Shown piece by piece: positions 8,343-29,495 of a stretch of 38,739 bases of DNA. The first letter of the stretch is position 1; each line of letters starts with the position of its first letter. Both the position numbers and the translations under genes were made by a program. The stretch comes from Pseudomonadota bacterium. Lineage in GTDB: Bacteria > Desulfobacterota > Desulfobacteria > Desulfobacterales > Desulfolunaceae. The notes beneath the pieces were generated by a model. It did not search any database. It was not told the origin of the DNA and was given only the letters and a program-made list of their open reading frames with translations. Location of the stretch: positions 1 to 38,739 of the forward strand of contig JAHIRD010000065.1 of NCBI GenBank assembly GCA_018818835.1, given 5' to 3'.

Positions 8343-8361
8343 GGGATGTAAATCCATAACC

Positions 8362-11300
8362 ATGGAGAAGCACTTGGAAAATGCGATAATGGGGGACGTC
8401 AAAAAAATGAGCCGAGACGTCTCCGTAGACAATACATGGCCGAAGGTGCTGGTGGGCCGGCAAAAAGAAAAACGAATGATTTTGAACACCTTTGTCAAGG
8501 TCCAGATGGGTGCCAATGAAACGGTTCTTGTCAAAGGTGATGCGGGCATAGGCAAGACAGCCATCATTTCTGACCTTGCCGCAAACAGGATTACAAAGGA
8601 AGGCTTTTTCATTACCGGTAAATGCGGACAGTATCTGCATAATTCCCCCTATGAATCGGTTATCCAAGCATTCACGCATATCACCAATCAGATCCTGACC
8701 GGAAGACATGGTTCCATCGTGCAATGGAAAGAAGATCTCATTGAGACATTGGGTGAAAACGGCCGGTTGATCACAGAAGTCATCCCCGGGCTTGAACAGA
8801 TTATCGGAAGGCAGCCCGAGACAGACTCTCTGAACATCAGGGAAAGACGAAACCGTTTTCATCAGGTTTTTAAAAAATTTATCCGGGTATTTGCCAGAAA
8901 AACTTATCCCCTGACGCTCTTTCTCGATGACCTGCAATGGATTGATCATGCCAGTCTCAGCTTGATGGAGTCGGTTGTCGGTGACCCCACCATTGAATAT
9001 TTCTTGTTCATCGGGGCCTATAGGGACAATGAAGTCGATGCCTCCCATTCGTTGACATCCTTGATCAGGAAGATTGAAGCAAGCGGCTGTCACGTTCATT
9101 TCATCGAGCTGTCCGACCTGAATGCCCAGGAAACCCATCAACTCGTGGGGTGCTTGCTTAAATCAACAAACGCCGAATTGATGTCTCTTTCAAGCGTGGT
9201 GTGGAGGAAAACCGGCGGGAATCCTTTTTTTATCAACCAGTTCATAAACAGACTCCATGACACAGGTTTGATTTTCCGCGATAAGAATCTTGACTGGGCC
9301 TGGGATATTGAAAAAATTAACCTGGTCCCATCCACAGATAATGTCCTGGCCTTTCTAAAAAGCAAGATAGACTCCCTGACCGAACCGGAAAAAAGGACTT
9401 TGGACATATGTGCCTGCCTGGGGAGTCCTTTTGATTTGGAACTCCTGTCCGGGGTGGATTCACATTCTATGGACCTCATTTACAGCCATCTTTACGCGGC
9501 AACGGCCGCTGGGCTCATTGACATGGAAAACGAGCAGGGCTGTTTTCTCCATGATCAGATCATGGAAGCAATTTATTCCACCATACCCGCCACCGAGAGG
9601 CAGGCCATCCACCATCGTATCGGCAGGACCCTGGTCCGTATGAACGAGGTCTGTCCCATTCCGGATAAAATTTTCTTCATGACTGACCAACTCAATCATG
9701 GGGCTATCCTGATCACGGACACAGACGAAAAAACGGAACTCATCCGATATAATCTGGAGTGCGCCAAAAAGGCCAAGGCATCATCAGCGTATCTTCCGGC
9801 CTATGAATATCTGGAAAAATCCATATCCCTTCTTCCCTCTGACTCGTGGGAAACCCAGCATGAACTGACCATGGATGCTTTTACAGAATGCGTGGAAGTA
9901 TCATGCCTGAAAGGTGACTATGCCAGGATGTATCAATTGGCAAATATTGCCCTTGCCCATGCAGAATCCTTTCTGGATAAAATCGATATCTACAAGGCCG
10001 AAGTCCATGCCTGCATTGCCCAGGAGGATTTTATAGCGGCCTTGACCATCGGCGTGTCCTTACAGGGTGTGATCTCACATTATCCATTGGCAGCCAGCCC
10101 ATGGGATGTTTTCAGGGAATATGCCAGGTTAAGAGTCATGTTACTGGGCAAAAACATCGATAGCCTGATCAATCTGCCTGAAATGACGGACCCCGCGGTC
10201 CTAAAGACCCTTGAGGTCGGCTCCAGCCTGGGCATTGCTCTTTACAGCAAAGCCCCGAAGCTCCTGTCCTTATATGTCATTCTGTCGGTTCAAAATGCCT
10301 TGAAATATGGCAAGGCACCCGAGCACCCCATTTGCTTTTTTGCCTATGGGGCCATGCTGATATCCGTTTTCGGGGACATCAAAAACGGATGTAAATTCGG
10401 GACTCTGGGAATAAAGCTTGCCGAGCACCCCCATTGCCGGAAATACATGTCCATGTTCCTATGCGTCTATAATTGTCTGATACGACACTGGAAAGAACCC
10501 ATTCGAAACACCCTCGAAGATTTTATCGACGGCTATCGTTATGGGCTCGAGTCGGGTGACCTGTTTTATGCGGCTCTGAATCTTTGCGTAAGCAACCAAA
10601 TGGCCTATCATGCGGGAGTCCCACTTCCCCAGATTGAACAGAGCATCCGGGAAAAAAACATACTCATTAAATCCATTAATCAAAAACAGGTTTTAACTCT
10701 TCAGAAAATTTTATGGCAGGCCATCTTAAATCGTCTGGAGCCAAATGATGACCCAACTCAATTGATGGGTAACGTCTTCAACGAAAAAACCACCCTTCCG
10801 TTCTGGCAATCAACAAACAACAGACTGGCACTTGCCATTTTATACAATGCCAAACTCAATCTGGAAGTCGAGTACCATAAGTATACCCAGGCTTTATCCA
10901 GCCTTTCTGTGGTCAAAAAATACCGAAAATCCGTCTCCGGATTTATTGTGGAACGAGACATCCCTTACTACGATGCGTTGATTCGATTGGGCTTGTACCC
11001 CACCCTGTCCTATGCACAAAAGAAAATTTGCCTGATCCGGGTAAGAAATGATCTGAAAATACTCAAGAAAATGGTCACCCATGCACCCGCAAATAATTTA
11101 CATCGCTTTTATCTTGTCAAAGCCGAATGCGCTCGTATTCTGAACAGAAAAAACAAGGCTGAAACCTATTATGATCTTGCCCTCACCTATGCCAGGGAAT
11201 ACAAATACATCCATGAGGAAGGCCAGGCCAATGAACTGGCGGCCCGCTACTATTTTTCCATGGGCAAGGATAAAATCGGAGCCCGCTGCATCAACGATGC

Positions 11301-12921
11301 CTACCAATGTTACCGCGAATGGGGAAATATTTCAAAGCTGGGGTATCTTGAGAAAAACTATGAGCCCTATCTTTTTATGGAAATACACGCATCATTGTCC
11401 TCTGCCGGTGCACTGGATCCTGGAAGCCAGAGTGTCAACCTGTCAAAGGTGTTCAAAGAATCCCAGGACATCGCCGAGGAGGTGGCCTATCCCAAGCTCC
11501 TGGAAAAAATGATGCGGATCACCATATCGAATATGGAAGCGGAAAAAGGATACATGATCCTTTTAAAACACAATCACCTGTTTATAGAAGCTGAAGGGCA
11601 CGCTGGATCTGAAGATTTTCCTGTGTTGCAGTCCATACCCATCGACGAGCACACAGGCCTTTCCAAGGCAATCGTTCATGCCTGTGCACAGTCAATTCAG
11701 CCTATTTTGCTGAATAATGCCCGATCAGATGGCCCTTTTGTTGCTGACCCCTATATTGTTGTCCATAAGCCCAAATCCATTTATTGTTTTCCCATATTAC
11801 ACAAAGATGAATTGATGGGGATTCTTTATTTTGAGAACAACCTTATCATGGGGGCCTTTACGCCAGCACATAGAAAGTCTTTGGATTTACTTGCGGCACA
11901 AATCGCAATATCCATTGAAAACACACGGCTCTATGAGCAACTTGAAGAAACCGTCACCCAACGATCCAAAGAGCTCAGGCGGGCCATCAATGAATTGAAT
12001 AAAGAAGCCTACAAGAGAAAATTAACCGAAGAGGAACTGTGCATTTCCAATTTCCGTCTTGCAAAAGTGCTGGACACCACCTCGGATACAATCATCGTCA
12101 TCAATTATTTACGGGATATTATTTTTTATAATAAGGGTGCTGAAAATCTTTTTTCTTATACACCTGCTGAAATTATGCACCAGCCTGTCAACGGTCTTTT
12201 CCCCATGGACCAGCACTCATCCTTTGAAACACATATCCTTTCCCTCACGGCACTGACCGGATCGGGGGATAAGAACGAGCCTATTCTGATGGACCTGCAG
12301 CGTAAGGACGGGACACGGCTCCGGGGAAGCCTGTCCTTGGCGGCATTAAGCATTGATGACGAGCCTTATTATTCATTGATCATAAATCCTGTGATAGATA
12401 TGGTTCACCAGGACCCATCACCACAGAAACCCCCAAATAATCCCATGGTGTATCCCGAGCCGAAGGTCCCGGTGGATAGCAGCAAAATTTCCGAAACGGT
12501 GGACCAGATGGCCTTCGATTTTGATGAGCGGCTTGCGGCTCTTGATTATGCTATCAAAGACATCAGTCACCATTTAAGCCCTCTGTATATCAAAGAATCT
12601 GAGATTCGAGAAAAAATTTCCGAATTATTGACCATGACACTGATGATCTGGGAAAATTCGACCAAAAAAACAAAAATCGATCTTGCTGAAGAAAGCGGCA
12701 TCTGGAAAGCCTATTGTGACGGCGGCACATGGCGAACACGGACCATGGACAAATATCTGGATCCCGATACGATTCCTGAGCGGCCACGATACAATAACGT
12801 TATGAAAACCGTGGATTTTGTTCTGAAGAGTTGCGCCGAAGACACAGAACAGATCCGTTCACTCAAAAAGGCCGCCCAGGAGATGAAAGGGATTCTTCTT
12901 AAAAAAGGATATAAATTCTGA
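8362..12921 (+). CDS. Giant AAA-TPR-GAF-PAS sensor protein, paralogue lacking the kinase domain
   Basis: This protein of about 1519 residues is collinear with the preceding one from the AAA domain onward: Walker A GDAGIGKT near 59, Walker B FLDDLQW near 187, TPR-like middle, GAF about 1030-1190, PAS about 1230-1343. It lacks the N-terminal kinase. It continues past the point where the first paralogue stops, with some 110 extra residues (1410-1519) containing TKKTKIDLAEESGIW and GTWRTRTMDKYLD, which I do not recognise as a named domain. No histidine kinase or response regulator is present. I chose ATG 8362 because it lies after the upstream stop with AAGGGA upstream; ATG 8389 or 8407 are alternatives. 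It is convergent with the TRAP operon, with only 7 bases between stop codons. Confidence 0.82.
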   Translation: MEKHLENAIMGDVKKMSRDVSVDNTWPKVLVGRQKEKRMILNTFVKVQMGANETVLVKGDAGIGKTAIISDLAANRITKEGFFITGKCGQYLHNSPYESVIQAFTHITNQILTGRHGSIVQWKEDLIETLGENGRLITEVIPGLEQIIGRQPETDSLNIRERRNRFHQVFKKFIRVFARKTYPLTLFLDDLQWIDHASLSLMESVVGDPTIEYFLFIGAYRDNEVDASHSLTSLIRKIEASGCHVHFIELSDLNAQETHQLVGCLLKSTNAELMSLSSVVWRKTGGNPFFINQFINRLHDTGLIFRDKNLDWAWDIEKINLVPSTDNVLAFLKSKIDSLTEPEKRTLDICACLGSPFDLELLSGVDSHSMDLIYSHLYAATAAGLIDMENEQGCFLHDQIMEAIYSTIPATERQAIHHRIGRTLVRMNEVCPIPDKIFFMTDQLNHGAILITDTDEKTELIRYNLECAKKAKASSAYLPAYEYLEKSISLLPSDSWETQHELTMDAFTECVEVSCLKGDYARMYQLANIALAHAESFLDKIDIYKAEVHACIAQEDFIAALTIGVSLQGVISHYPLAASPWDVFREYARLRVMLLGKNIDSLINLPEMTDPAVLKTLEVGSSLGIALYSKAPKLLSLYVILSVQNALKYGKAPEHPICFFAYGAMLISVFGDIKNGCKFGTLGIKLAEHPHCRKYMSMFLCVYNCLIRHWKEPIRNTLEDFIDGYRYGLESGDLFYAALNLCVSNQMAYHAGVPLPQIEQSIREKNILIKSINQKQVLTLQKILWQAILNRLEPNDDPTQLMGNVFNEKTTLPFWQSTNNRLALAILYNAKLNLEVEYHKYTQALSSLSVVKKYRKSVSGFIVERDIPYYDALIRLGLYPTLSYAQKKICLIRVRNDLKILKKMVTHAPANNLHRFYLVKAECARILNRKNKAETYYDLALTYAREYKYIHEEGQANELAARYYFSMGKDKIGARCINDAYQCYREWGNISKLGYLEKNYEPYLFMEIHASLSSAGALDPGSQSVNLSKVFKESQDIAEEVAYPKLLEKMMRITISNMEAEKGYMILLKHNHLFIEAEGHAGSEDFPVLQSIPIDEHTGLSKAIVHACAQSIQPILLNNARSDGPFVADPYIVVHKPKSIYCFPILHKDELMGILYFENNLIMGAFTPAHRKSLDLLAAQIAISIENTRLYEQLEETVTQRSKELRRAINELNKEAYKRKLTEEELCISNFRLAKVLDTTSDTIIVINYLRDIIFYNKGAENLFSYTPAEIMHQPVNGLFPMDQHSSFETHILSLTALTGSGDKNEPILMDLQRKDGTRLRGSLSLAALSIDDEPYYSLIINPVIDMVHQDPSPQKPPNNPMVYPEPKVPVDSSKISETVDQMAFDFDERLAALDYAIKDISHHLSPLYIKESEIREKISELLTMTLMIWENSTKKTKIDLAEESGIWKAYCDGGTWRTRTMDKYLDPDTIPERPRYNNVMKTVDFVLKSCAEDTEQIRSLKKAAQEMKGILLKKGYKF

Positions 12922-12928
12922 TTTACCC

Positions 12929-14206
12929 TTACTGAATGGAAAATTGCGTAATCAGAAAAAGGCTCATCCATGGCACATAGGTAATCACCATCAATCCCAG
13001 AATCAAAATCATGATATATGGCACACATGCCCGATAAAGGGTGATGATGGACGTATCAAACCGAATACTTGATATAAACAGGTTCAGGCCCAGCGGCGGT
13101 GTTGAATAACCGATCTCAAGATTAGCAAGAAAGATAATTCCGAGATGGACAGGATCAATCCCATAACTGATAGCTATGGGAACAATGATGGGTACCACGA
13201 CAACAAGGGCTGAATAAATATCCATAAGACAGCCCACACCCAAAAGAAACACGTTCAGGGCTATTAGAAAAACATAGGGTGAAGTGATGTATTCCTGTAT
13301 GAATGCAAGAATACGCATGGGGATCTCTTCATCAATCATGTAGGTGGTCAGGGTCAAAGCCGAACCGATGATGATGAAGATAGCCCCCACCAGGACCATG
13401 CTCTCCTTGAAAATGGCCGGAAATCGCCCCAGGGCGATGTCTTTGTGGACAAAAACCTCCACGATAAATGTATACAGCACCAAAATGGATGCCACCTCTC
13501 CCAAGGTCACGATACCACTGAAAATCCCCGCAAGGAGGATCACCGGAATAAACAGCTCCCATTTGGCGACGCTTGCCGTGGTTAGAATCTGATGGAATGA
13601 AATGCTTACCCGTTTGGCCTGGGTCTTCTTTCCTGTCATGATACTGTAAAGGGACAGGATTAGGATAAGAAAAATGCCCGGAATAAGACCCGCTGCAAAA
13701 AGCTGTGGAATGCTCGTTTTGGACACAACCCCATAGATGATGATGGGAAGGCTCGGGAAAAAAAGAAGTCCAAGACTTCCCGATGAGGTTAAAAGTCCCA
13801 GGGTGAATTTTTCCGAATAACCGTCTTTAATCAAGGCAGGATAGAGCAATCCGCCAATGGCTATGATGGTGACGCCGGAGGCCCCTGTGAACGATGTAAA
13901 AAAGGCGCAGGCACATAACGATACAATGGCAAAGCCTCCGGGAAGCCACCCCAGCATGGCTTGGGAGACGTTGACCACCCGCGTTGAGGCTTTACTTTCT
14001 GAAAGGATGAAGCCCGCAAAGGTAAAAATGGGGATGGTGTATAAAACAGGGTTGTTGGAGAACTGGCTGTAGACATCAACGATGAGGGCGGCAAAGGGTA
14101 CGCCAGAGACATAAAACCCCAATAGGGCAAAGGCGGATAAGACCGCAAAGACCGGGGCACCCAGAAGGGCCATGACAATGATCAGAATGACGATTGCTGA
14201 AACCAT
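12929..14206 (-). CDS. dctM: TRAP transporter large permease (DctM family)
   Basis: The 425-residue protein is strongly hydrophobic with about twelve membrane segments, begins MVSAIVILIIVMALLGAPVF, and carries DctM-type features such as TGASGVTIIAIGGLLYPALI and the C-terminal NLEIGYSTPPLGLNLFI. It forms the sodium-driven transport channel of a tripartite transporter in the inner membrane. Its ATG begins one base after the stop of the small permease gene, which implies translational coupling. It is the last gene of the minus-strand operon. The length is normal for the family. Confidence 0.95.
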   Translation of the reverse strand: MVSAIVILIIVMALLGAPVFAVLSAFALLGFYVSGVPFAALIVDVYSQFSNNPVLYTIPIFTFAGFILSESKASTRVVNVSQAMLGWLPGGFAIVSLCACAFFTSFTGASGVTIIAIGGLLYPALIKDGYSEKFTLGLLTSSGSLGLLFFPSLPIIIYGVVSKTSIPQLFAAGLIPGIFLILILSLYSIMTGKKTQAKRVSISFHQILTTASVAKWELFIPVILLAGIFSGIVTLGEVASILVLYTFIVEVFVHKDIALGRFPAIFKESMVLVGAIFIIIGSALTLTTYMIDEEIPMRILAFIQEYITSPYVFLIALNVFLLGVGCLMDIYSALVVVVPIIVPIAISYGIDPVHLGIIFLANLEIGYSTPPLGLNLFISSIRFDTSIITLYRACVPYIMILILGLMVITYVPWMSLFLITQFSIQ

Positions 14207-14207
14207 A

Positions 14208-14828
14208 TTAGTGACCCCTTACCCCTATCCACTGTAAGCAGATGTTAAGACTTCTTACTAAAAACCAGAGCATGACAGCAAAATAACCCAGGGGTATGAC
14301 TATCTCGAGAATCCAGGTGGGTGTGTCATGAAAGGCTATCACTGTCCCAGCGTGAAAGTCCACGAGGAGAAACCGGATGGACGCATAAAAAAGAATGGCA
14401 CACACCGTCGTTGTGAAGGCCCCTGTGAGGACGTTTACAATCTGTTTCATGTTTGAAGGCAGTATCCTGTAAGCCACATCGATTTTGAGATGACTTTCAC
14501 TGCGGGCAGCCATGGCCGCTCCAATAAATGCAACCCAGAGAACGAGGTGCCTTACAATCTCTGCACCCCCTGTTACCCCCGTAGAAAAAAAATTCCGCAG
14601 GATGATCTGAAACAAAACAAGGAACACCATGGCACAGAGCAACAGAGACACCAGGGCCGTTTCCACTTGGCTTATCAGCCTGGACAGTCGGTTGGGGGGC
14701 GGTATCAGGCCACCGCATTTTATGCATCGTCCGCCCAGGCTCCCCGCGTCTGAACCGCATGACGGACAACCCACGCTTGTTTGGTCTGAATTAAATGAAT
14801 GATTCAATGAAAGGTCCTTTCTTTTCAA
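14208..14828 (-). CDS. dctQ: TRAP transporter small permease (DctQ) with N-terminal zinc ribbon
   Basis: Residues from about 50 to 206 form a normal four-helix DctQ subunit (LFQIILRNFF, GGAEIVRHLVLWVAFIGAA, SHLKIDV), which docks with DctM. The unusual part is residues 21-38, CPSC and CIKC separated by ten residues, a typical zinc-ribbon pair. Small permeases normally have only a short N-terminal tail. The start is taken as TTG 14828: the frame has an upstream stop and no ATG before the cysteines, and no strong ribosome binding site is visible, so the exact start is uncertain. A later GTG just before the first Cys would still keep the ribbon. The operon continues into dctM. Confidence 0.88.
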   Translation of the reverse strand: MKRKDLSLNHSFNSDQTSVGCPSCGSDAGSLGGRCIKCGGLIPPPNRLSRLISQVETALVSLLLCAMVFLVLFQIILRNFFSTGVTGGAEIVRHLVLWVAFIGAAMAARSESHLKIDVAYRILPSNMKQIVNVLTGAFTTTVCAILFYASIRFLLVDFHAGTVIAFHDTPTWILEIVIPLGYFAVMLWFLVRSLNICLQWIGVRGH

Positions 14829-14986
14829 ACAGAAAAATTTGGCAAACAGGTATTATTTTCTTTAGGTCATTCATGGTTGGCCTACGATGAAGCCTCAAAC
14901 CCACTACCCATTTGCGTGTCGGGGGAGAAGCCTTGGCGAAGACCGGTCCAGCTTTTTAAGCTTGTCCCCGCGAAGGCTGGGAAGCT

Positions 14987-15053
14987 GGCCGCCGGAGGCA
15001 TATTTCTTCGTACTCCTCGTGTTCTTCAGCGACCAAGGGGAGCGGGTGGTTGA
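14987..15053 (-). repeat. Dispersed intergenic repeat family 1, copy inside the TRAP operon
   Basis: Read on the minus strand this gives ATCAACCACCCGC, then GCTGAAGAACACGAGGAG, TACGAAGAA and GCCTCCGGCGGCC. The same ordered blocks occur on the plus strand at 26164-26238 and 37661-37738. It fills part of the 270-base gap between the radical SAM gene and the small permease gene, the only large gap in that operon. Confidence 0.75.
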
Positions 15054-15098
15054 TAAAATTTTACCTGGCTGGAAGCCTGAAAACGCATACAACGACGG

Positions 15099-16565
15099 TT
15101 AGTTCAGGTCATGGCCCACCTCTTCCGTGGCTTTGTTTTTAATGCGTGTATGGGAATTTTTGTTTTCGATGATGCCGTGCTGGCGATAAGCAAACAAGGT
15201 ATCGACCATGGTGATAAACATATTTTTATAAAGGCCCCAGGTTTCTTTGGATGTGGGCAAAAGGTAAGGTTGTTTTCGCATCTTTATCTTTCGCACCCGA
15301 AAGGGGTTCAACACGCTCAGATACACGATATTCATCGAGCGATAAAATGACTTGAGAGACATCTGGGTCGGTCTGATAACGCAGTGCTGGAAATCCCACA
15401 GGGCATGACCTGTTTCATAGGGAACGATCAGCCGGTCCTTATACTCGTGATAAAGATCCGTTGCAGGAAGAGGGGTCAGGGGGTTTAAAAAGATATAGAC
15501 CAGGCCCAGTTCCTTGATATACCTGTTCAGCGCTTTGAAATGTTCTTTGGTATAATGGGGCTGCAGAATAAAGGATGCGGAAACGTCAATACCCAGTTCA
15601 TGACAGATCTCCACGGCTTTTTTATTGTTTTCAATGCTGTTTCGTTTGTTGTACTGATCAAGTTCTTCGTTGGTGACCGCTTCGATTCCCACACGGAGCA
15701 TCCGAAGGCCTATGTCTTCCCATTTTCTTAAAATCTCTTTGTTCTGTACAACAAAATCAGTGCGACCATAGACCAGATATTCCTTTTCAATGTTCCGCTC
15801 TTTGATCATATGATAGAGGGTATCTAAACGTTTCTTGTTGAAAAGAAAGGTGTCATCAATAATGAACACTTCCTTGGAATCAATGGATTCGATTTCATTG
15901 ACCACGGATTCAGGTGAACGGGAGAAATACTTATCATCGGTCAGATGCCGGTTATAGCAGAAGGTGCACTGGTAAGGGCAGCCCCAGGAGGTCCTCATGA
16001 TGGTCAGGGGGCGCCACTGGAGATAAAAATAGTCCTTTCGATACGGCTGGGTGAGTTTTCTGTCGGGCAGAGGGAATTGATCAACATCCTTGGGGAACGG
16101 TCTCACATCCGTAAAACAAAATCCCGCTTTTTTCCCATAACCGATGCCCTTTACCCTGGACAGATCCCCTCCGGTGTCCAGGCATTCGATCAATTCCTTG
16201 AATGTTGTCATGCCCTCGCCATGGACAATAAAATCCACGTATCTGTTTTGAAAGTCTTTTGGATTCAATGCCGCGTGGACCCCTCCCATGACGGTTCTGA
16301 TACCGGGATCATACTGTTTTACACGCCTGCAGACGTCCAGAGCCTCGCTTATGTTATTGATGTAGCAACTCGTCCCCACCACCTGGGGATTGAATTCCTT
16401 CAGGCAGGCATCGAGATTATTGTCCACCATTAAATCACAGATAAGGACCTCATGATCCGGCACACTGGCCCCCACATATTCAAGTTCAAGGGGCTCGCAG
16501 ATCATGATGAGTTTTAACCCATGGGTCTCTTCCGGTTGTTGTGGTCGAACAAGCAGTATGCGCAT
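15099..16565 (-). CDS. B12-binding-type radical SAM protein
   Basis: The 488-residue protein has an N-terminal Rossmann-like half of the cobalamin-binding type (VPDHEVLICDLMVDN, VGTSCYINN, VMGGVHAALNP) and a radical SAM half with the cluster motif C196-x3-C200-x2-C203 inside WGCPYQCTFCYN. The classic DxHxxG cobalamin motif is not evident, as in many members of this class. Such enzymes perform radical methylations, ring closures or rearrangements on lipids and other natural products; the substrate cannot be read from the sequence. It sits between the solute-binding protein gene (15 bases) and the permease genes, so it likely acts on the molecule this operon makes or imports. Confidence 0.85.
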   Translation of the reverse strand: MRILLVRPQQPEETHGLKLIMICEPLELEYVGASVPDHEVLICDLMVDNNLDACLKEFNPQVVGTSCYINNISEALDVCRRVKQYDPGIRTVMGGVHAALNPKDFQNRYVDFIVHGEGMTTFKELIECLDTGGDLSRVKGIGYGKKAGFCFTDVRPFPKDVDQFPLPDRKLTQPYRKDYFYLQWRPLTIMRTSWGCPYQCTFCYNRHLTDDKYFSRSPESVVNEIESIDSKEVFIIDDTFLFNKKRLDTLYHMIKERNIEKEYLVYGRTDFVVQNKEILRKWEDIGLRMLRVGIEAVTNEELDQYNKRNSIENNKKAVEICHELGIDVSASFILQPHYTKEHFKALNRYIKELGLVYIFLNPLTPLPATDLYHEYKDRLIVPYETGHALWDFQHCVIRPTQMSLKSFYRSMNIVYLSVLNPFRVRKIKMRKQPYLLPTSKETWGLYKNMFITMVDTLFAYRQHGIIENKNSHTRIKNKATEEVGHDLN

Positions 16566-16580
16566 TGTCTAATCACCATG

Positions 16581-17639
16581 TCATTGAGTGATGATGCTAT
16601 CAAATTCAGATCCGGGATGATTTTTCCTGTACTCGTCCACAAGGGCAAGGGTCCGATCCAGAAGTTCCTGTGAATACAACTTTCCCACAAGGTTTTGCCG
16701 GACCGTCTTGCTGGCTTCAAAAATATATTGACTATCCGGGCTGTTTATCTTGTCAATTTCTATGATTTTTATTCCGGCTTTTTTAAGGAGGACAAGACTT
16801 TTTGCGTCATCCTGGCGAACCGCCGCAACGATCCTTTCATGTTCCGTTCTGGAAATGTCCAAAATAATTTTCTGACTTTTTGGTGAAATCTTGTCCCAGA
16901 TATCCTTGGTCACAATGGTGGCACCAAGAATATTGCAGGCAGGGACATTGGTCATGTATTTAAATCTCGTATACCACTGAAATGCCACGGCTCCAAAGGG
17001 ATTTGAGCTGGCACAGTCAATGAGATTTGTCGATAAAGCGGTGGCCACATCGGCAATGGACAAAGAAATGGGGGATATTTCCAGGGTGTCAAAAATTTCC
17101 TGCACCAGGGGATCGCCTTCTATGGCCCACCATTTCTGCTTTCTCACAATATCAAGGGAGGTCAGGGGAATCTTGGAGAAATCATATACAAAACCCAGAT
17201 CCAGCCAGCCAAGAACAATAAAACCCTTTTCTTCAAAACGTTTATCCATTTCACTCTCAAGCTGGGACCGGACATAGGACACTTCCCCATTACTCCAGAA
17301 CACATAGGGGAGTTCCGTGACCCGAACCTGGGGGACGATGGTCCCCAGGCTTGGACCCATGATGCCGCCACCATGGAGCTGGCCGATTTTAATCTTCCGG
17401 ATCACATCTTTTTCATCACCCTGGACACCGCCCCAGTAGACTTTAAATTGAACCTCATGGTTTGTTTCCTCATAGGTTCTTTTAATGAGATCTTCATAGA
17501 TGTTGGCCATATTTGAGCCCTTGGGTGCAATGGACGCCATTTTTATGACGACCTTAGGTTCATCTGCCCCAACGTGACCTACGCTGAACATGATGAGTGA
17601 CAACAGAGTCATGGCAATGATCAAGGTGTGTCTTTTCAT
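16581..17639 (-). CDS. TRAP transporter substrate-binding protein, TatP-like (DctP family)
   Basis: The 352-residue protein starts with a cleavable signal peptide (hydrophobic to residue 22, likely cut after VGA) and is a periplasmic TRAP solute receptor: IKMASIAPKGS, VQGDEKDVIRKIKIGQLHGG, LPYVFWSNGEV, and NLIDCASSNPFGAVAFQW. At the position where carboxylate-binding receptors carry an arginine (K-I-R), it has K-W-W followed by AIEGDP. This places it in the subgroup that accompanies TatT lipoproteins and suggests a ligand other than a simple carboxylate. GGAAGG lies about 9 bases before the ATG. It lies between tatT and the radical SAM gene. Confidence 0.9.
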   Translation of the reverse strand: MKRHTLIIAMTLLSLIMFSVGHVGADEPKVVIKMASIAPKGSNMANIYEDLIKRTYEETNHEVQFKVYWGGVQGDEKDVIRKIKIGQLHGGGIMGPSLGTIVPQVRVTELPYVFWSNGEVSYVRSQLESEMDKRFEEKGFIVLGWLDLGFVYDFSKIPLTSLDIVRKQKWWAIEGDPLVQEIFDTLEISPISLSIADVATALSTNLIDCASSNPFGAVAFQWYTRFKYMTNVPACNILGATIVTKDIWDKISPKSQKIILDISRTEHERIVAAVRQDDAKSLVLLKKAGIKIIEIDKINSPDSQYIFEASKTVRQNLVGKLYSQELLDRTLALVDEYRKNHPGSEFDSIITQ

Positions 17640-17680
17640 ATCCCGTTTTCCTTCCTCTTTATTCGCCCCATGGGGTTAAT

Positions 17681-18595
17681 TTAAAAAAACTCATCCGCCT
17701 TTTGATAAAGATTTCCTGCCTTCCATTTGGCCAACGCATTGACAAAGCCCATCTCCGGGAAAATAGTATCCGGGGATGACATAACCTTGTCCAGCATCTG
17801 TGTAAAAAGCGCCTTGTCCAAGGACTGGGTTGCATAGTATTTGGCGTAGAGATAATGGAAAATCAGCATCTTGTTGTCAGAAATCTCAAAGGCCCTGTTA
17901 AAATGATACCGTGCTTTTTCAGGATTGCCCCCCACAGCTTTTGGAACGCTGTAATAGGTCCCGAGCAGAACATGGGCCGAACCATAGTAATACGTCTCAT
18001 CCAGTTCAATAATTTTATTCAGCATAGCCACGACTTTGGGAATGTCCATAAAGGTCTCGGGATCATCCAGGTTGAGGCTGATCCAGCCCATCCATGCGTT
18101 TGCCGTCAAATAGAGAGCCGGAACATCCCGTCGGCTGAATCCGGCCAGCAGCTCGCTGAACTCCAAATCCGTTCGTTTATAATTTTCTGCAAAAAAACCA
18201 TTGTGTTTGAGAGCCTGAATCCCATACTCTCTGGCTTTAGAATAAAGACGCCCTGCCCGTTTATTATCCACATCCTCAACAAATGCAAAGCTGTAGCCAC
18301 TGTATGCCTCGCATGCATTCAGGAGCATGTCTTCATTGGGGTCCACCGTGATAAACCCATCCAGTTGGATAAGAACAAAGGGAAACGCATCACGGACCAT
18401 CTCAATATCGGTATTCATGTTCACAGCAGCATTCATATCATCCATCAGGGGCACCATGGATCTGACCATCTGCACCTTCATGGAGCAGGCTGAAAAACAA
18501 ACAAGTACCATGGGGATGACCATATAACTGAAAGCCCTGTTCAACAACGCCAAGGGCTTGATTTGAGGCGGTATCCCATAACGCATTTTTATCAT
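17681..18595 (-). CDS. TRAP transporter TatT-type TPR lipoprotein
   Basis: The 304-residue protein has a signal sequence ending in a lipobox (FSAC, cysteine 37), so it is predicted to be lipidated and attached to a membrane facing the periplasm. The body is helical with TPR-like repeats and shows family features: FPFVLIQLDGFITVDPNED, GYSFAFVEDVD, LLGTYYSVPKAVGGNPEKAR, and YAKYYATQSLDK. In Treponema pallidum the homologue TatT associates with the solute receptor TatP and was proposed to help bind hydrophobic ligands. Its ATG overlaps the stop of the upstream oxidoreductase gene (ATGA), with GGAG just before it. The receptor gene follows after 41 bases. Confidence 0.88.
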   Translation of the reverse strand: MIKMRYGIPPQIKPLALLNRAFSYMVIPMVLVCFSACSMKVQMVRSMVPLMDDMNAAVNMNTDIEMVRDAFPFVLIQLDGFITVDPNEDMLLNACEAYSGYSFAFVEDVDNKRAGRLYSKAREYGIQALKHNGFFAENYKRTDLEFSELLAGFSRRDVPALYLTANAWMGWISLNLDDPETFMDIPKVVAMLNKIIELDETYYYGSAHVLLGTYYSVPKAVGGNPEKARYHFNRAFEISDNKMLIFHYLYAKYYATQSLDKALFTQMLDKVMSSPDTIFPEMGFVNALAKWKAGNLYQKADEFF

Positions 18596-19704
18596 GCTGT
18601 ACTCCCTTCCTCTTTGTGTGTCTGAACGTTAAACAGCAGCCCTCGTTTTAAGGCATATTCCATGAATGTTTCAGGGTTAATGCATTCATTAAGATAAAAA
18701 ACACCCGATTTATAAATGTCTTTATCAAGAATCATTTTTACGGTGATGGCTGCGGCTATGGCGGTTCCCAGGTACATATCATGGTGGGAAAGATCATATG
18801 TCAGAGATAATTTCTTATGATTTATTTGGCCATGGGCAATGGCTCTGATTGCATAGCCCCGTGGTCCTTTTCGGGTGCTGATGACACTTAAATAACGCAA
18901 GGCAGACGAGGCATACTTAAATAATTTTTCAGATCTTATTTTTCTAAATAGCCAGCAAAAAACAGCGATAAAGCTCATCAATTCGCTTTGCAATGCCCCG
19001 TAAAAGGCAAAATCATTCATGGCATACCGTGACGGAATGGAGGTCATATCATAAACCATTCCCGGAATGCAGAGTTTTGCCCCAAAAGGCTTTGGAAACA
19101 CGATCTTTTTGATGGTGTATAGGGGCACGCTCTGCCACGTGCCTTGTTTGTAAATCGACAGATCTCCTTTTTTGAACTGGTCCACCGTGTCCCATGCCGA
19201 TACAGCCGTCAGTTCATCATGAAAAATAAAACAGATGTCCATGGCGTCCACGGACTCCAGCCTCCCTGCAAGATAGCCTGGTATGATGCCGATCAGGCCG
19301 GGGACCAGGCCTGCGGATGTGCAGAAAATCAATTCTTTTGAACACACCGTTTGATTCCAGCTTTGAATTTTGCCCGTGGCTTCCTCGTAGCAGGCCACAT
19401 CCACGTAATGACATCCTGACTCAAGGGCTGCCTCGGCGACAATGTGGTTGATTTCACTGCTCGGCCCCGCACAATTAAGGGTCAGAACTGCGTTGGCCAT
19501 GGCACTTAAAAGAGATTGTTTGTCAAAAACATCCACGTAAGCACCCTGGACCCTGTGACCCAAGGTCCGGGCGAAGATATCCGCCTTTTTTTTATTCCTT
19601 CCGGCAACCGTCAATGGCGCATCCGTCATGGCCATGAGTTCCCGGGTCGTTGCGGCACCCACGCGGCCATATCCGCCCAGTATAAGTACGCTCTTACGAT
19701 TCAT
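18592..19704 (-). CDS. Saccharopine dehydrogenase-like NAD(P)-dependent oxidoreductase
   Basis: The 370-residue protein begins with a Rossmann dinucleotide-binding motif (VLILGGYGRVGAATTREL) and continues as a saccharopine-dehydrogenase-fold protein: TVAGRNKKKADIFA, LNCAGPSSEINHIVAEAAL, HYVDVACYEEA. True lysine metabolism is unlikely here because its neighbours are an alpha-oxoamine synthase and an acyltransferase. Homologues of this fold also reduce lipid or polyketide intermediates, so a carbonyl reduction in lipid synthesis is plausible but inferred. It follows the acyltransferase gene after 26 bases and overlaps tatT by 4 bases. The ribosome binding site before its ATG is weak, so it probably depends on coupling. 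Confidence 0.8.
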   Translation of the reverse strand: MNRKSVLILGGYGRVGAATTRELMAMTDAPLTVAGRNKKKADIFARTLGHRVQGAYVDVFDKQSLLSAMANAVLTLNCAGPSSEINHIVAEAALESGCHYVDVACYEEATGKIQSWNQTVCSKELIFCTSAGLVPGLIGIIPGYLAGRLESVDAMDICFIFHDELTAVSAWDTVDQFKKGDLSIYKQGTWQSVPLYTIKKIVFPKPFGAKLCIPGMVYDMTSIPSRYAMNDFAFYGALQSELMSFIAVFCWLFRKIRSEKLFKYASSALRYLSVISTRKGPRGYAIRAIAHGQINHKKLSLTYDLSHHDMYLGTAIAAAITVKMILDKDIYKSGVFYLNECINPETFMEYALKRGLLFNVQTHKEEGSTA

Positions 19705-19730
19705 GGATGATCTGTCTTTTTTTCCCCGGG

Positions 19731-20849
19731 CTAATTGATGTGATAATCATAAACCCGGTAGGTTTTATGGATCTTTGCCCCCAGCCACGTCGTGGTGCTG
19801 AGAAAGGGATTTTTTTCATGGGTCCAACCCCCTTCAAACCGTTTGTATCCTGCATGTATGTGGTTCATCCATGCATCTTCATAGATGAGAACGGCAGCAC
19901 GTTTATCACGGAATTCCGGGAGCACTCCCAATGCGACCATTCGACCATACGATATTTTTTTCCTGAAGAAAAGCAACTTGAAAATGCCGAAGGGGAAAAG
20001 ACGGCCATTGAGTTTTTTAAGGATAAAGTTGTAATCAGGAATGGACATGGAGTATCCGATAATTTTATTATCAATCTCGGCAAAAACAATCAGATCAGGG
20101 TCAATAAACGGTTTCATGGCTTTTGCCGTATACATGAATACATCGTCGCTGAACGGAAGATAACCCCAATTTTTTACCATGGCGCCATCGTATTGCTCCT
20201 TGATGAACGTTGCCTCCTCATAATAGTTATCCATATTTATTTTTCGAATGCGGATATTCGGATGATCCGCCCTGACATCCCGGGCTATCTGACGGACATG
20301 CTCCCCGGGCTTTTCCTTAAGATCCATCACCAGAGCGTACAGATCAGCTTCTTTAACAAACCCGAATGAGTCAATGAGATTCTCGTAATATCTGGGATTA
20401 TAGGTCATCATAATGCAGGGACTGGAGTCAAACCCATCAACAAGCAAACCACAGGTGTCGTGTATGGAAAAATTCATGGGCCCGCGCATGATGGTCATCC
20501 CCCGGCATTTCAGCCAGGAAGATGCTGTTTCAAAAAGTGCGTGTGCAACCAATTGATCATCAATGGCTTCGAAGAATCCAAAAAAACCTGTGCTGTCATT
20601 GTGAATTTTGTTGTGATCATAAATAATGTGGGCCGAGATGGTCCCCACGGGTTTTTTTTCTCTGTAAGCAATAAACAATTGAACGATGGCATGATTGAAA
20701 AATGGGTTTTTTTCAGGATTTAAAAAGGATTTTCTATCTGAAATCAACGGAGGAACCCAGTTGGGATCTTTTTTATAAATCGTCCAGGGGAATGTGATGA
20801 ATGTCATCATCTCTTTTTTTGTTTGTACCGGTTTGACTGTAATTTTCAC
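19731..20849 (-). CDS. GNAT-like N-acyltransferase, YghO/bacterial ceramide synthase type
   Basis: The 372-residue protein has the opening FPWTIYKKDPNWVPPLISDR and the motifs PEKNPFFNHA and MRGPMNFSIHDTCGLLVDGF. These belong to a GNAT-fold family that I recall as including E. coli YghO and the GNAT-type bacterial ceramide synthase of Caulobacter. The expected reaction is transfer of an acyl group to an amine; the acyl donor and acceptor are unknown. The start is GTG 20849, supported by GGAGG eight bases upstream and a 4-base overlap (GTGA) with the oxoamine synthase stop. The tight coupling to an oxoamine synthase supports a shared pathway. Confidence 0.75.
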   Translation of the reverse strand: MKITVKPVQTKKEMMTFITFPWTIYKKDPNWVPPLISDRKSFLNPEKNPFFNHAIVQLFIAYREKKPVGTISAHIIYDHNKIHNDSTGFFGFFEAIDDQLVAHALFETASSWLKCRGMTIMRGPMNFSIHDTCGLLVDGFDSSPCIMMTYNPRYYENLIDSFGFVKEADLYALVMDLKEKPGEHVRQIARDVRADHPNIRIRKINMDNYYEEATFIKEQYDGAMVKNWGYLPFSDDVFMYTAKAMKPFIDPDLIVFAEIDNKIIGYSMSIPDYNFILKKLNGRLFPFGIFKLLFFRKKISYGRMVALGVLPEFRDKRAAVLIYEDAWMNHIHAGYKRFEGGWTHEKNPFLSTTTWLGAKIHKTYRVYDYHIN

Positions 20850-22198
20850 CCGTACACCCTCCGTGTATTTCCGTCGCTGGCATCTGTGTATATTCGCCTG
20901 TCCTTTGGCTGTTTCAGAGCATGATGTACCGGTTGAAACAGTTTCATTTTCCGGTCATAAACATCGTAAAGGCAGTTGCAAAAATACTCTATCTGTTCTT
21001 TTGTGTGCATGGCCGTGGGGATCACTCGAATCAAGGATGTGCTTATCGGCACTGCCGGAAAAATCACCGGTTGAACCCAAATAGCATAGTCCCTTCGAAG
21101 TTCCTCGCAAAGAAGGACCGCCTGCAATCCCGGAAAGGCGATGGGCGTGATGGGCGTTACCGTATCACCGATATTAAACCCCAATTCCACCAGACGTGTC
21201 TGTAAAGCCTGGGCATTGTCATGAAGTTTCTGCCGTAGGTCTGTGGCTTTACGCCCAATGTCAAGGGCTTTGATGGTGGCGGCCACAATAACGGCAGGCT
21301 GGGATTTAGTAAAAATGGTGGTATTCGCCATATGGCGTAAATAGGTGACAACATCTTTATTGGAAGCAATAAAACCGCCCTGTAGGCCAAACGCCTTGCT
21401 AAAGGTCCCGGCATGAATGTCAATCCGGTGTTCAACCCCCTGGACCTCTGCCACACCGCCCCCCCCGTTGCCAAGGGTCCCGTTTCCATGGGCATCATCC
21501 ACAAAGAGCCTTGCATGGTACTTGTCCTTGAGATCGCATATCTCAACCAGGGGAGCCACATCACCGTTCATGCTGTATACCCCGTCAACAATGACGAGTT
21601 TTCCACGTTTGGGATCGACTTTCTTTAATATGTCTTCCAGTTGATTAAGGTCATTATGCTTGAACCGTTCGACCTTGGCCCGTGAAAGGACAGCTCCGCA
21701 ATTCAGACTGGCATGGGCCAACTCATCACTGATAATCACATCCATGGGTGACACCAGAGCACTGACCGACCCGATCATGGCGTTGGCACCCACGGAAAAG
21801 GTCAGAGAGCCTTCTGTCTTTTTAAAATCCGCAATCTGCCGTTCAAGCTCCAGGTGAAGCTCCGTGGTACCACCCAGCATGCGTGAACCCATGGGTGACC
21901 CGATTCCGTAAACAGCCGCATAGTCGGCAGCCACGTTGATGACCTCAGGGTGTGTTGCCATGCCCAGGTAATTATTGGCGCAGAACTGGATCCAGCTCCT
22001 GCCCCGATGACTGATCAGGGGCCCCCCGTTGTTTATGGGCGCTGTGCTGTAAAAAATATCAAGGATGTCTTCAATGTGATGATCAATATAATGATCATCC
22101 AAACCCCATCGATGCTCCACAGATACGCTCTTATTAATACTCCTTACCAAGGCTTTTACCCGGTGTATGTTCCGGCATTTATCAAAAACATCACGCAT
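20846..22198 (-). CDS. Alpha-oxoamine synthase, PLP-dependent (serine palmitoyltransferase/KBL/BioF family)
   Basis: The 450-residue protein is a fold-type I PLP enzyme that condenses an amino acid with an acyl-CoA with loss of CO2. Key residues are visible: NNYLGM at 76, SPMGSRMLGGTTELH near 101, the cofactor-stacking His162 (DELAHAS), VDDAHG with Asp235 and His237, and the Schiff-base Lys268 in GTFSKAFG. It has a longer N-terminal and C-terminal extension than BioF (about 385 residues). It could be a BioF or KBL, but no biotin or threonine genes are near, while the acyltransferase and reductase next door favour a sphingoid-base or aminolipid role. AAGGAAG precedes ATG 22198. It is the first gene of the operon. 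Confidence 0.85.
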   Translation of the reverse strand: MRDVFDKCRNIHRVKALVRSINKSVSVEHRWGLDDHYIDHHIEDILDIFYSTAPINNGGPLISHRGRSWIQFCANNYLGMATHPEVINVAADYAAVYGIGSPMGSRMLGGTTELHLELERQIADFKKTEGSLTFSVGANAMIGSVSALVSPMDVIISDELAHASLNCGAVLSRAKVERFKHNDLNQLEDILKKVDPKRGKLVIVDGVYSMNGDVAPLVEICDLKDKYHARLFVDDAHGNGTLGNGGGGVAEVQGVEHRIDIHAGTFSKAFGLQGGFIASNKDVVTYLRHMANTTIFTKSQPAVIVAATIKALDIGRKATDLRQKLHDNAQALQTRLVELGFNIGDTVTPITPIAFPGLQAVLLCEELRRDYAIWVQPVIFPAVPISTSLIRVIPTAMHTKEQIEYFCNCLYDVYDRKMKLFQPVHHALKQPKDRRIYTDASDGNTRRVYG

Positions 22199-22727
22199 CT
22201 GACGGCTTCCTTACATCTGAATCGTTTTTTCCCTATGAATCTTGATTGATTCAAGGGTATCTATGGGGTGCATAATCCTTGAAAAATAAGACTATTTACG
22301 TCCAGTTAATTTCCATCCATGGAAGATGTCAATATAAGGAATGGTTAAATATTAGGCCTGGTTTTTGACCAGTCAAAATTTAAGTGAAAAAAAAGACGTT
22401 CCGGGCAAAGCAGTTACCCCTTTTTATAATTTTAACATACTGTATTTTATTTATAATGTTACAAATGGCCACCTTTAAAAACACGAGGATGTAAAATTTA
22501 TGTCATTGTAGGTGTTTTGCATGGATTACGTTATATTAACTGATCCCCATGCTTTCCTGCTGCATAGCGATATAGGATCAATTGTTTTTGTGACCTATCT
22601 GAAGAGTCACTTTACACAGAGACAGGTAAGAGTATAATAAAAAAATATGACGGTAATCCGACTTTTTTAAATGGGCAATGAACCCGTAAGATTTTGATGA
22701 TGATTTTTAATGAAAGGAATGGCTCGC
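22199..22727. other. Divergent intergenic region between the lipid/TRAP operon and the LUD gene
   Basis: No gene is seen in this 529-base gap. It must hold the promoter of the minus-strand operon, for which I find no convincing hexamers. A clear plus-strand promoter is at 22611-22638. A short hairpin (GTGAC, GTCAC) lies near 22590-22610 just before that promoter. Confidence 0.5.
22611..22638 (+). promoter_or_regulatory. Sigma-70 promoter of the LUD-domain gene
   Basis: TTTACA at 22611-22616 (five of six to TTGACA) and a perfect TATAAT at 22633-22638 are separated by 16 bases. Transcription would start about 80 bases before the gene. Confidence 0.6.
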
Positions 22728-23372
22728 ATGGATCAGATCCATAAAAAATGGCTTGGAACAAAACTGGGGGAGCACTGTGTGACGCACCTGATCAATCATC
22801 GGTTTGACGCCCACCTTGTTCAGACCCCCCAGGCGGCGGTCAATCTCATTCTTGACTGGACAGCACCCTTTGAACGGTTCGGATTCGGCGGTTCGGACAC
22901 CATCAATGCCCTGGGAATCAAAGAACGTCTCAAGGACATGGGAAAACGGATCTTTGACCACAACGAAGAGGGGCTTTCCTTTGAAACCAGTCTGGAATAC
23001 AGGAAAAAACAAAGCAACTGCGATTGTTTTCTCTGCAGCGCCAATGCCCTTTCCCAGACCGGTGAAATCGTGAATATGGACGGCATCGGAAACCGGATCA
23101 ATGCCATGACCTTCGGCCCCAAAAAGGTGATCATTGTGGCTGGAATCAACAAAGTCACCCAGGATCTCGACTCGGCCATCCGCAGAATCAGAGAGGTTGC
23201 CGCCCCCATGCGGGCCAAAAGCCTCGGTGCAGACACGCCCTGCGCCCTGACCGGACGCTGCGCTGACTGCAACGCCCCCATGCGCATCTGCAATATCACG
23301 TCCATTTTACACCGCAAACCCATGCTGACCGATATCTCGATCATCGTGGTCAACGAAGAAATGGGCTATTGA
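22728..23372 (+). CDS. LUD-domain (LutC/YkgG-like) protein
   Basis: The protein of about 214 residues belongs to the LUD/DUF162 family: HRFDAHLVQTPQAAVNLIL, FGFGGSDTINALGI, CFLCSANALSQTGEIVNMDG, and AMTFGPKKVIIVAGINKV. Members occur in lactate-oxidation complexes but also as stand-alone proteins of unknown role. The C-terminus has four cysteines (TPCALTGRCADC, then ICN) that could bind a metal or Fe-S cluster. I chose ATG 22728 because AAAGGA lies nine bases before it; an in-frame ATG at 22710 has no ribosome binding site. No lutA or lutB partner is present, so a lactate role is unproven. Confidence 0.82.
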   Translation: MDQIHKKWLGTKLGEHCVTHLINHRFDAHLVQTPQAAVNLILDWTAPFERFGFGGSDTINALGIKERLKDMGKRIFDHNEEGLSFETSLEYRKKQSNCDCFLCSANALSQTGEIVNMDGIGNRINAMTFGPKKVIIVAGINKVTQDLDSAIRRIREVAAPMRAKSLGADTPCALTGRCADCNAPMRICNITSILHRKPMLTDISIIVVNEEMGY

Positions 23373-27216: not shown

Positions 27217-27746
27217 CTTTGTTGAACGTTCCAAACGATATAAAACATAAGGAGGAAGATAATAAGTATGCATGATTTTAACGAATATTGCACTGACAAT
27301 CCTCCTTGATCAAAAAACTATTTTCAAATATTTTAAGGGTGAATCTATCAGATAGATGTTAAAAATATGTGTTTGAATATGTAAAAGATATGACCAGGTC
27401 TCTTGAATCTTTTTACATTCTGAATAGACCTCTGGACATAGGTTGTTCATAAGTCCCATAGGTCCGATAAGTCCTATTTTGTTTCTGAGGCTTCAGTGAT
27501 TCCCCTATGGTACCTGAGTAACGCACATAACCATTTTTTATCATTCCGGACAAATCACATCAAATTAACATCAACACCCTGTAATATCGAATGATGTTAA
27601 TAATTATCAAATTTCAATATTGTGTTTTAAAAAAATAATCGATTACATTTTTGTTGATTTCTGTTATGTTATTTCATAAATGTTGTCGGCCATACTTGTT
27701 TGGTCCGTTTTTTGATCATGGTTTGAACCTAAGCACGGGAGTTTCG
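27217..27746. other. Intergenic region upstream of the NifA-like gene
   Basis: About 530 AT-rich bases. It contains a 13-codon frame at 27268-27309 preceded by AAGGAGG, whose ribosome binding site could pair with TCCTCCTT at 27300-27307; short CATAGGTCC/AAGTCC-type repeats near 27451-27476; and a 16-base motif shared with the next NifA-like gene (27645-27660). No typical -24/-12 promoter is seen. Confidence 0.5.
27645..27660 (+). promoter_or_regulatory. 16-base motif shared upstream of both NifA-like genes, copy 1
   Basis: ACATTTTTGTTGATTT occurs here, 86 bases before the first NifA-like gene, and again at 29496-29511, 101 bases before the second. It may be a shared control site or simply retained from the duplication that made the two genes. 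Confidence 0.4.
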
Positions 27747-29270: not shown

Positions 29271-29495
29271 TATGGCGTGATCCAACCGGGAGCTGGCATC
29301 ATACATTTTTGTGATTTTGTATCCGAACAATCAACATAAATGTCATAAAGCCAGCTTCCTCTATTTTTTCCCCGGCTCTTTCCATCGCATTAAAAAAGCA
29401 TTATAATAATTTATATCAGATAGTTAATGTATGTATCACCTCCTTGCTCATTTTAAATCAAACATCCATCCCTGGCACTTTTTCTCTAAAATACA

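Follow-up and report, generated by a model that had tools for sequence, protein, structure and literature searches.

The Operon and Its Gene Order

The window analyzed here is a stretch of 38,739 nucleotides (contig JAHIRD010000065.1, our contig C271) of GenBank assembly GCA_018818835.1, a 6.75-Mb draft genome that is 97.96% complete and belongs to a bacterium of the family Desulfolunaceae in the order Desulfobacterales (phylum Desulfobacterota). Positions 12929-22198 of its minus strand hold a row of eight genes that encode, in the direction of reading, an alpha-oxoamine synthase, a GNAT acyltransferase, an oxidoreductase of the saccharopine dehydrogenase type (SacDH), the T-component TatT and the receptor DctP of a tripartite ATP-independent periplasmic (TRAP) transporter, a radical SAM protein with a B12-binding domain, and the two TRAP permeases, DctQ and DctM (Table 1). 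The frames, limits and order of these genes are all as described earlier in a reading made from the sequence alone (hereafter the sequence-only reading), which had also proposed that the three enzyme genes are coupled by 4-base overlaps and run straight into tatT. An overlap of 4 bases is indeed present between the oxoamine synthase and GNAT genes, and another of 4 bases joins the SacDH and TatT genes; the GNAT and SacDH genes are instead separated by 26 bases. Elsewhere in the row the gaps amount to 41 bases (TatT-DctP), 15 (DctP-radical SAM), 270 (radical SAM-DctQ) and 1 (DctQ-DctM). It is plausible that the eight genes form one transcription unit. In 12700-22800, both strands considered, neither promoter-like matches (20, compared with 17.3 +/- 4.7 in shuffled sequences) nor terminator-like matches (11, compared with 11.1 +/- 3.1) were in excess.

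Table 1. Genes and features of the operon, listed in the direction of reading.
Feature	Position	Strand	Basis
Alpha-oxoamine synthase, SulA-like, 450 aa	20846..22198	-	Pfam Aminotran_1_2 6.1e-56
Tandem-GNAT N-acyltransferase, YghO/bacterial ceramide synthase family, 372 aa, GTG start	19731..20849	-	
SacDH, saccharopine dehydrogenase-type NAD(P)-binding oxidoreductase, 370 aa	18592..19704	-	Pfam PF03435 (Sacchrp_dh_NADP) 2.7e-15
TatT, TRAP T-component, 304 aa	17681..18595	-	Pfam TAtT 4.3e-67
DctP, TRAP receptor, TatP-type, 352 aa	16581..17639	-	Pfam DctP 4.4e-31
B12-binding + Radical_SAM protein, 488 aa, CPYQCTFC motif	15099..16565	-	Pfam
Dispersed-repeat stretch, 270 bp	14829..15098	.	Matches within own genome
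DctQ, TRAP small permease	14208..14828	-	Pfam DctQ 1.9e-24
DctM, TRAP large permease	12929..14206	-	Pfam DctM 1.6e-74

Relatives were searched for in collections of different breadth: those of the GNAT in 8 genomes of the family, 340 of the order and a wider collection of genome contigs; those of the oxoamine synthase in 340 genomes of the order and, with a profile, in 203 of the phylum; those of the radical SAM protein and of TatT in 340 and 331 genomes of the order, respectively; and those of SacDH in 395 genomes of the phylum. In the searches of the order with the radical SAM protein and the synthase, at most four candidates per genome were scored and weaker copies can be missed. Gene neighborhoods were read around the GNAT and TatT hits and, for the other queries, around two SacDH hits, three synthase hits and the radical SAM hits from three genomes.

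A SulA-Like Oxoamine Synthase

The best PDB match of the oxoamine synthase is 28eh, a cysteate-C-fatty acyltransferase (2.1e-77). One clear active-site difference is described between SulA and Spt, namely the presence of Lys281 in SulA and of an Ala in Spt (Radka et al., PMC9304779, in excerpt). K298 of the window enzyme aligns with this lysine, and the Ala expected of Spt is absent. Among 136 aligned rows (125 distinct at 99%), this position is occupied by Ala in 113, Thr in 9, Asn in 6, Ser in 3, Glu in 1 and Lys in only four, which are the window enzyme, 28eh, 7u7h and L200, the latter from a Spirochaetales metagenome-assembled genome. These four rows, together with L182, are also those that carry a one-residue PM insertion and an IPTA motif (5/136), two features noticed post hoc, whereas the lysine by itself is a criterion set beforehand by others. 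By alignment, the SulA active-site residues Asn53, His140, Asp217, His220, Lys251 and Arg376 correspond to N75, H162, D234, H237, K268 and R391 of the window enzyme, K268 being the lysine that binds pyridoxal phosphate.

In a 39-row tree the window enzyme forms, with the SulA-like rows, a five-row clade with support of 100/98 in which it is the deepest branch; a 69-row tree likewise places it with the SulA-like rows (99/95, with a long-branch warning). A grouping with BioF or KBL, which the sequence-only reading had itself named as speaking against its proposal, was not seen, the separation being supported at 98/85 in the 69-row and at 100/97 in the 39-row tree. Note also that hidden Markov models provide no class label: bioF (326.9 bits, cut-off 426.45), the glycine acyltransferase models (276-326 bits) and all three serine palmitoyltransferase (SPT) models (231-311 bits) in NCBIfam remain below their cut-offs. 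The earlier assignment is retained as far as the alpha-oxoamine synthase class is concerned and revised as to type, since K298, the PM insertion, the IPTA motif and the 100/98 clade make the enzyme SulA-like and not a typical SPT. This likeness points to the sulfonolipid side rather than the SPT side, and hence to a base of the capnine/sulfonolipid type or to another non-serine amino acid as the substrate.

Two synthase loci deserve mention. One, in the same order (L226:9130-10446, minus strand), encodes a SulA-like oxoamine synthase with Glu at the position of SulA Lys281, beside a gene for a BadF/BcrA-type ATPase, and possibly has another amino-acid specificity. The other lies on contig C156 of the same genome as the window (L168:5915-9532), where a 1205-aa fusion of an AMP ligase, an acyl carrier protein (ACP) and an oxoamine synthase has as neighbors genes for an MMPL protein, a FabA-domain/acyltransferase protein, UbiA and a DAGK-type kinase; we consider it a second candidate aminolipid or polyketide-type locus.

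An Acyltransferase of the Ceramide Synthase Type

The product of the second gene (ACYLTRANSFERASE) is a GNAT protein. Its Pfam signal is very faint, yet from end to end it can be aligned with the members of a large family. Its 43 compared relatives are 39-47% identical to it, with E339, W342, N347 and other residues invariant, and it shares 33.5% identity over query positions 1-371 with an Escherichia coli plasmid protein annotated YghO (H44) and 29.5% with a second YghO-annotated protein. The predicted structure (pLDDT 92.9) has a tandem-GNAT fold and is nearest to the tandem-repeat GNAT 7q3a (Z 24.6 over 302 residues, 3.4 A, 14% identity). Together with the synthases found beside its relatives, these data bear out the previous assignment to the YghO/bacterial ceramide synthase type, a membership drawn from the relatives and the YghO-annotated proteins. 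By this kinship, the protein would be expected to N-acylate a long-chain base.

The best 80 of 568 GNAT loci, which come from Zixibacteria, Ignavibacteria, Cloacimonadota, Aminicenantes, Gemmatimonadota and others, contain an oxoamine synthase homolog in 40 cases, directly adjacent in 36, and a CerR homolog in 37. Within the order, the GNAT has a match in 42 of the 340 genomes, the window's own included; the GNAT frame was recognized in 39 of 40 fetched loci, with an oxoamine synthase within the stretch in 12 and adjacent in 3. Several of these loci bear a ceramide island composed of genes for the GNAT, an NTP transferase, an AMP ligase, a CerR-like protein, an ACP, a synthase, ABC components, a DAGK and a Tam41-like protein. 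A quick tree places the window GNAT within a multi-phylum clade of 36 rows (SH-aLRT 95), apart from the main island clade of the order (15 rows). The Spirochaetales genome that holds L200 (G744) encodes a ceramide synthase-type GNAT, L133, elsewhere in the genome. We also would like to mention that in four loci from one family of the order (L039, L044, L045, L048) the GNAT relative is preceded by an OmpA/VWA protein gene on the opposite strand and followed by a gene for a protein of ~1500-2560 aa, in some cases cut by the end of the stretch.

The Putative Reductase and the Radical SAM Protein

The sole Pfam match of SacDH is PF03435 at its N-terminus. SacDH matches at 1e-15 occur in 28 of the 395 genomes of the phylum, the own genome included, and these relatives reach at most 28% identity over the full length and up to 35% over the first half; the best-scoring two, L170 and L171, have no synthase, GNAT, TatT or TRAP gene as a neighbor. 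Identity with CerR was considered for the third gene and dropped: the gene found at the CerR position in relatives (L034) matches PF01370, of the Epimerase family, and the window gene, which matches PF03435 only, belongs to a different family. SacDH might take over the part of CerR as a ketoreductase.

The radical SAM protein combines a B12 domain with a CxxxCxxC motif. Its best NCBIfam model is HpnR, the hopanoid C-3 methylase, at 217.9 bits, which is so far under the equivalog cut-off of 650 that this identity was rejected. The best PDB matches are TokK and CysS, both of which we take to be B12 methylases. Because of its kinship to HpnR, TokK and CysS, one may guess that the window protein C-methylates a lipid. 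Homologs at E <= 1e-80 were found in 3 other genomes among the 340 of the order, with 36% identity (four candidates at most scored per genome).

The TatT-TRAP Transporter

TatT has CFSAC near residue 37 of its N-terminal part and is a possible lipoprotein. Its best PDB match is 8g52 (1.9e-10), presumably BstC, and it also matches the TatT protein Tp0956 (1.3e-06). BstC, a TatT-family protein, binds sterols, and roles in lipid handling have been suggested for T-components (PMC10942540, in excerpt). In DctP, KWWAIEG stands where KIRVQG is expected, and the arginine that binds the ligand carboxylate is absent, its position being taken by Ala according to phmmer and by Trp according to MAFFT. The same arginine is missing from 17/17 full-length receptors encoded beside TatT (that of the window and its paralog in the same genome included) and present in 4/4 TRAP receptors without TatT nearby as well as in two PDB chains. 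TatP homologs are described as having mostly Ala at this position, TatT and TatP as having a hydrophobic pore and cleft, and TPAT systems, that is, TRAP transporters of the TatT/TatP type, have been proposed to serve hydrophobic uptake (PMC5812351, in excerpt). With TatT beside DctP and the permeases and a receptor devoid of the arginine, the transporter is of the TPAT type, as had been supposed, and there are hints that the ligand is hydrophobic.

TatT is present in 134 of the 331 genomes of the order. The set TatT-DctP-DctQ-DctM is complete and co-directional in 14 of 40 fetched TatT loci; in nine of the 40 (L274, L281, L282, L284, L285, L286, L291, L293, L294) TatT precedes an Opp/Dpp-like ABC importer permease gene and, judging from these loci, is not exclusive to TRAP systems. 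A paralogous TatT-DctP-DctQ-DctM set without the enzymes is found in the genome of the window itself (contig C105), where it follows a gene for a penicillin-binding protein. In one family of the order, genes upstream of the TatT operon encode a large secreted repeat protein (11 loci), a DUF1302 protein (6), a LolA-like protein (5) or an MMPL protein with sterol-sensing-like matches (3, several contigs being cut at this point). DUF1302 and the very large secreted repeat protein both precede TatT in L258, L259, L263, L271, L275 and L278, with LolA-like or MMPL proteins in some, and these loci give the impression of a system that moves hydrophobic compounds within the envelope. Such MMPL, LolA-like and DUF1302 neighbors hint at a hydrophobic ligand of TatT-TRAP systems independently of the operon studied here. 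As a minor feature, the N-terminus of the window DctQ contains, before the transmembrane part, a zinc-ribbon-like CPSC...CIKC stretch; the true start of this protein may be an in-frame TTG located 21 bases further in.

A Proposed Link Between Lipid Synthesis and Transport

The three enzyme types, an oxoamine synthase, a ceramide synthase-type GNAT and a reductase-type protein, fit the synthesis of an N-acyl aminolipid, in agreement with the sequence-only reading. Our reading is that the compact operon joins the formation of an N-acylated amino-ketone lipid of the sphingolipid or sulfonolipid type to a TPAT transporter for a hydrophobic ligand; it is a tentative one, to which we give a probability of roughly 0.45, and the functional link between enzymes and transporter is one that we infer from a single genome. 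In the pathway that we envisage, the SulA-like synthase would condense an acyl thioester, possibly acyl-ACP, with an amino acid, most likely cysteate, to form 3-ketocapnine, which the GNAT would then N-acylate. SacDH, in place of CerR, would reduce the ketone, with a possible C-methylation of the chain by the B12 radical SAM protein. TatT, putatively located at the outer membrane, and the arginine-less DctP would finally ferry the lipid or one of its precursors through the periplasm, either toward DctQM or away from it. A more specific version, in which the product is an N-acyl capnine-type sulfonolipid made by an operon apparently outside Bacteroidota, possibly methylated by the radical SAM protein, and in which a TatT-TRAP system devoted to this lipid moves it from one membrane to the other, appears unlikely.

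Were this more specific version correct, the operon would represent the first case in which such lipid synthesis is genetically coupled to a TRAP transporter, as well as a candidate periplasmic route for bacterial sphingolipid-like lipids, whose flippases and transporters are stated not to have been identified as of a 2024 study (PMC11087976, in excerpt). No operon joining such synthesis to a TRAP or TPAT system was found in the literature searched; the available part of PMC11762602 mentions a TRAP transporter, sphingolipid and operon in unrelated senses. A SulA-like enzyme with the diagnostic lysine beside a ceramide synthase-type GNAT moreover provides a specific candidate for how sulfonolipid-like lipids become N-acylated, and a lipid-making gene set is now tied to the proposed, unproven lipid role of TatT-TRAP systems, both ideas being testable. 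Two further claims were considered and dropped. The occurrence of sulfonolipid genes outside Bacteroidota would not be new, given that, with a cut-off of 1e-20, homologs of Cys, cfat and kcr are reported from 13 phyla (PMC11211663, in excerpt). A connection with the Black Sea sulfono-1-deoxyceramides was abandoned because their sulfono group is placed on the fatty acid chain (PMC11334938, in excerpt), unlike that of capnine.

Comparison With Known Systems

The Caulobacter-type ceramide pathway (Spt, bCerS, CerR) and the islands of the order resemble the window operon in combining an oxoamine synthase, a tandem-GNAT and an NAD(P)-type reductase, and in the adjacency of synthase and GNAT genes, as in the 36 adjacent cases among the best 80 relatives mentioned above. 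They differ in that the window synthase is SulA-like and not Spt, that its reductase is of the saccharopine dehydrogenase type and not an Epimerase-family CerR, and that the window operon has no ACP, AMP ligase, DAGK or PAP2 genes. With the sulfonolipid (capnine) pathway of Bacteroidota, which consists of a cysteate synthase, SulA (cysteate-C-fatty acyltransferase) and a 3-ketocapnine reductase, the operon shares the Lys281 equivalent, the insertion and the clade. However, the window synthase is a deep sister branch with ~40% identity, the operon contains no cysteate synthase gene, and its reductase differs in kind from the Tsc10/3-KDSR type given in PMC11211663 (in excerpt). According to the same excerpt, the reductase genes of A. 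finegoldii do not cluster with cfat and Cys, whereas the window genes are clustered.

On the transport side, the TPAT system of Treponema (TatT/TatP/TatQM, Tp0956/Tp0957) likewise has TatT next to DctP and permeases and a DctP without the arginine; the window differs by its separate DctQ and DctM, the radical SAM gene between DctP and DctQ, and the three lipid-type enzymes in front. In the Bst sterol trafficking system of Methylococcus, a TatT-family protein is encoded with lipid-making genes (PMC10942540, in excerpt), but its partners are a PhnD-like binding protein and a protein of the MMPL/RND type instead of TRAP components, and the lipid is a sterol. HpnR has the same B12-binding and radical SAM architecture as the window protein and differs by the score given above.

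Alternatives and Evidence Against the Link

A number of observations weigh against the proposed link and, in several cases, lend themselves to other explanations. Those that concern the synthase come first. Forcing it into the SPT clade costs 20.7 log units, a placement that is disfavored but not rejected (approximately unbiased test, pAU 0.067), and plain similarity fails to part SulA from SPT, as judged from blastp scores of 284 bits for the SulA-like L200, 280 for the SPT-type L085 and 249 for 28eh. In 33 GNAT-bearing genomes searched, 24 synthases were recovered and only one genome's had the lysine; this GNAT family thus usually occurs with SPT-type synthases. Row L182 has the PM insertion but Glu for Lys, so that the wider SulA-like clade need not be cysteate-specific. 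Furthermore, a search of the own genome for cysteate synthase of the TIGR03844 type, the only type sought, gave no match. The operon could accordingly specify an ordinary sphingolipid of the ceramide or 1-deoxyceramide type, built on serine or alanine, with SulA-like residues that are convergent or have no effect on specificity. Besides the pAU value and the missing TIGR03844 match, this explanation draws on the multi-phylum clade of the GNAT (SH-aLRT 95), in which nearly all partner synthases are without the lysine, and on the reported presence of Spt-like genes in many anaerobes, Desulfobacterota included (PMC11334938, in excerpt). We nevertheless find it rather doubtful, as K298, the insertion, the IPTA motif and the 100/98 support all lean toward SulA, and CerR is absent from the operon.

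Since no recognized cysteate synthase was found, it can also be imagined that the TRAP system imports a polar amino-acid substrate, cysteate or another sulfonate, and TRAP systems for sulfonates are known. Such a role is very improbable for a DctP without the arginine that binds the ligand carboxylate and for a system with TatT, which is not expected to serve small polar ligands.

TRAP systems work as importers, which is opposite to the direction needed for lipid export and fits uptake or retrograde movement better. Moreover, the operon contains neither an ACP nor an AMP ligase, unlike the ceramide islands of the order, and the single-sequence structure model of SacDH reaches a pLDDT of only 34.8. 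The direction of transport and the lack of an exporter in the operon would suit an import of a hydrophobic substrate or precursor, such as a fatty acid or a hydrocarbon-like compound, rather than a movement of the product, with enzymes that use the chain or make a surfactant for its uptake. DUF1302, LolA-like and MMPL genes in the operons of some relatives are in keeping with this, as are statements that TPAT systems of free-living proteobacteria occur mostly in hydrocarbon degraders and that uptake of aliphatic compounds is proposed for them (PMC5812351, in excerpt). The operon, however, has no acyl-CoA ligase; we regard this explanation as unlikely.

The conservation of the union itself is a further point. 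The union of enzyme and TRAP genes was present in 0/80, 0/40 and 0/40 loci of relatives, many of them cut short where a contig stops, so that the sampled loci give the outcome which the sequence-only reading had named as refuting its proposal. The best 80 of 568 GNAT loci contained no match to TatT, DctP, DctQ, DctM, the radical SAM protein or SacDH, the 40 fetched GNAT loci of the order contained no TatT, and the 40 fetched TatT loci contained no oxoamine synthase, GNAT, SacDH or radical SAM match. In one family, four GNAT loci (L061, L063, L064, L065) do have TRAP genes of the ordinary kind within a few kb. These genes lie on the other strand, no TatT accompanies them, and the receptors recovered, from three of the loci, retain the arginine; the GNATs are 28-30% identical to that of the window, and we consider these loci unrelated to the union. 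Two weak matches were also seen: one to DctM in L045 (82 aa, 25 bits), located at the edge of the stretch 8.8 kb upstream and in the same orientation, and one to the radical SAM protein in L062 (60 bits), ~3.5 kb upstream. In addition, the sequence between the radical SAM and DctQ genes (14829-15098) has at least 52 other partial matches in the own genome (E <= 0.001, 72-97% identity), a count based on 40 of 231 candidates scored, so that more are possible.

Because no second instance of the union was seen in the neighborhoods read and repeat DNA interrupts it, a chance assembly, in which the enzyme genes landed before an existing TatT-TRAP operon without any functional relation between the halves, is a serious rival, although in our view a doubtful one. 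It is consistent with the commonness of TatT-DctP-DctQ-DctM alone (14/40 loci), with the enzyme-free paralog in the same genome, with the absence of the GNAT from the 7 other genomes of the family and with closest synthases that are only 36-41% identical among the 340 genomes of the order (up to four candidates scored per genome). The 4-base overlap of the SacDH and TatT genes, the co-directional row with its mostly short gaps and the position of the radical SAM gene within the TRAP set argue against it.

Neighboring Genes and Other Features of the Window

The GC content gives no clear foreign-island signal. The operon is flanked upstream by a divergent gene for a LUD-domain protein and downstream by a convergent gene for a 1540-aa GAF/PAS protein. 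The latter is one of two giant signaling proteins encoded in tandem at 3324-12921 (1672 and 1540 aa), which have AAA_16, GAF and PAS domains in common and the first of which also has a protein kinase domain. At 27651-31136, two adjoining GAF/sigma-54 activators of 539 and 507 aa are of like domain make-up and perhaps arose by duplication, and at 31917-33095 on the minus strand a single frame of 392 aa contains two TetR domains in tandem.

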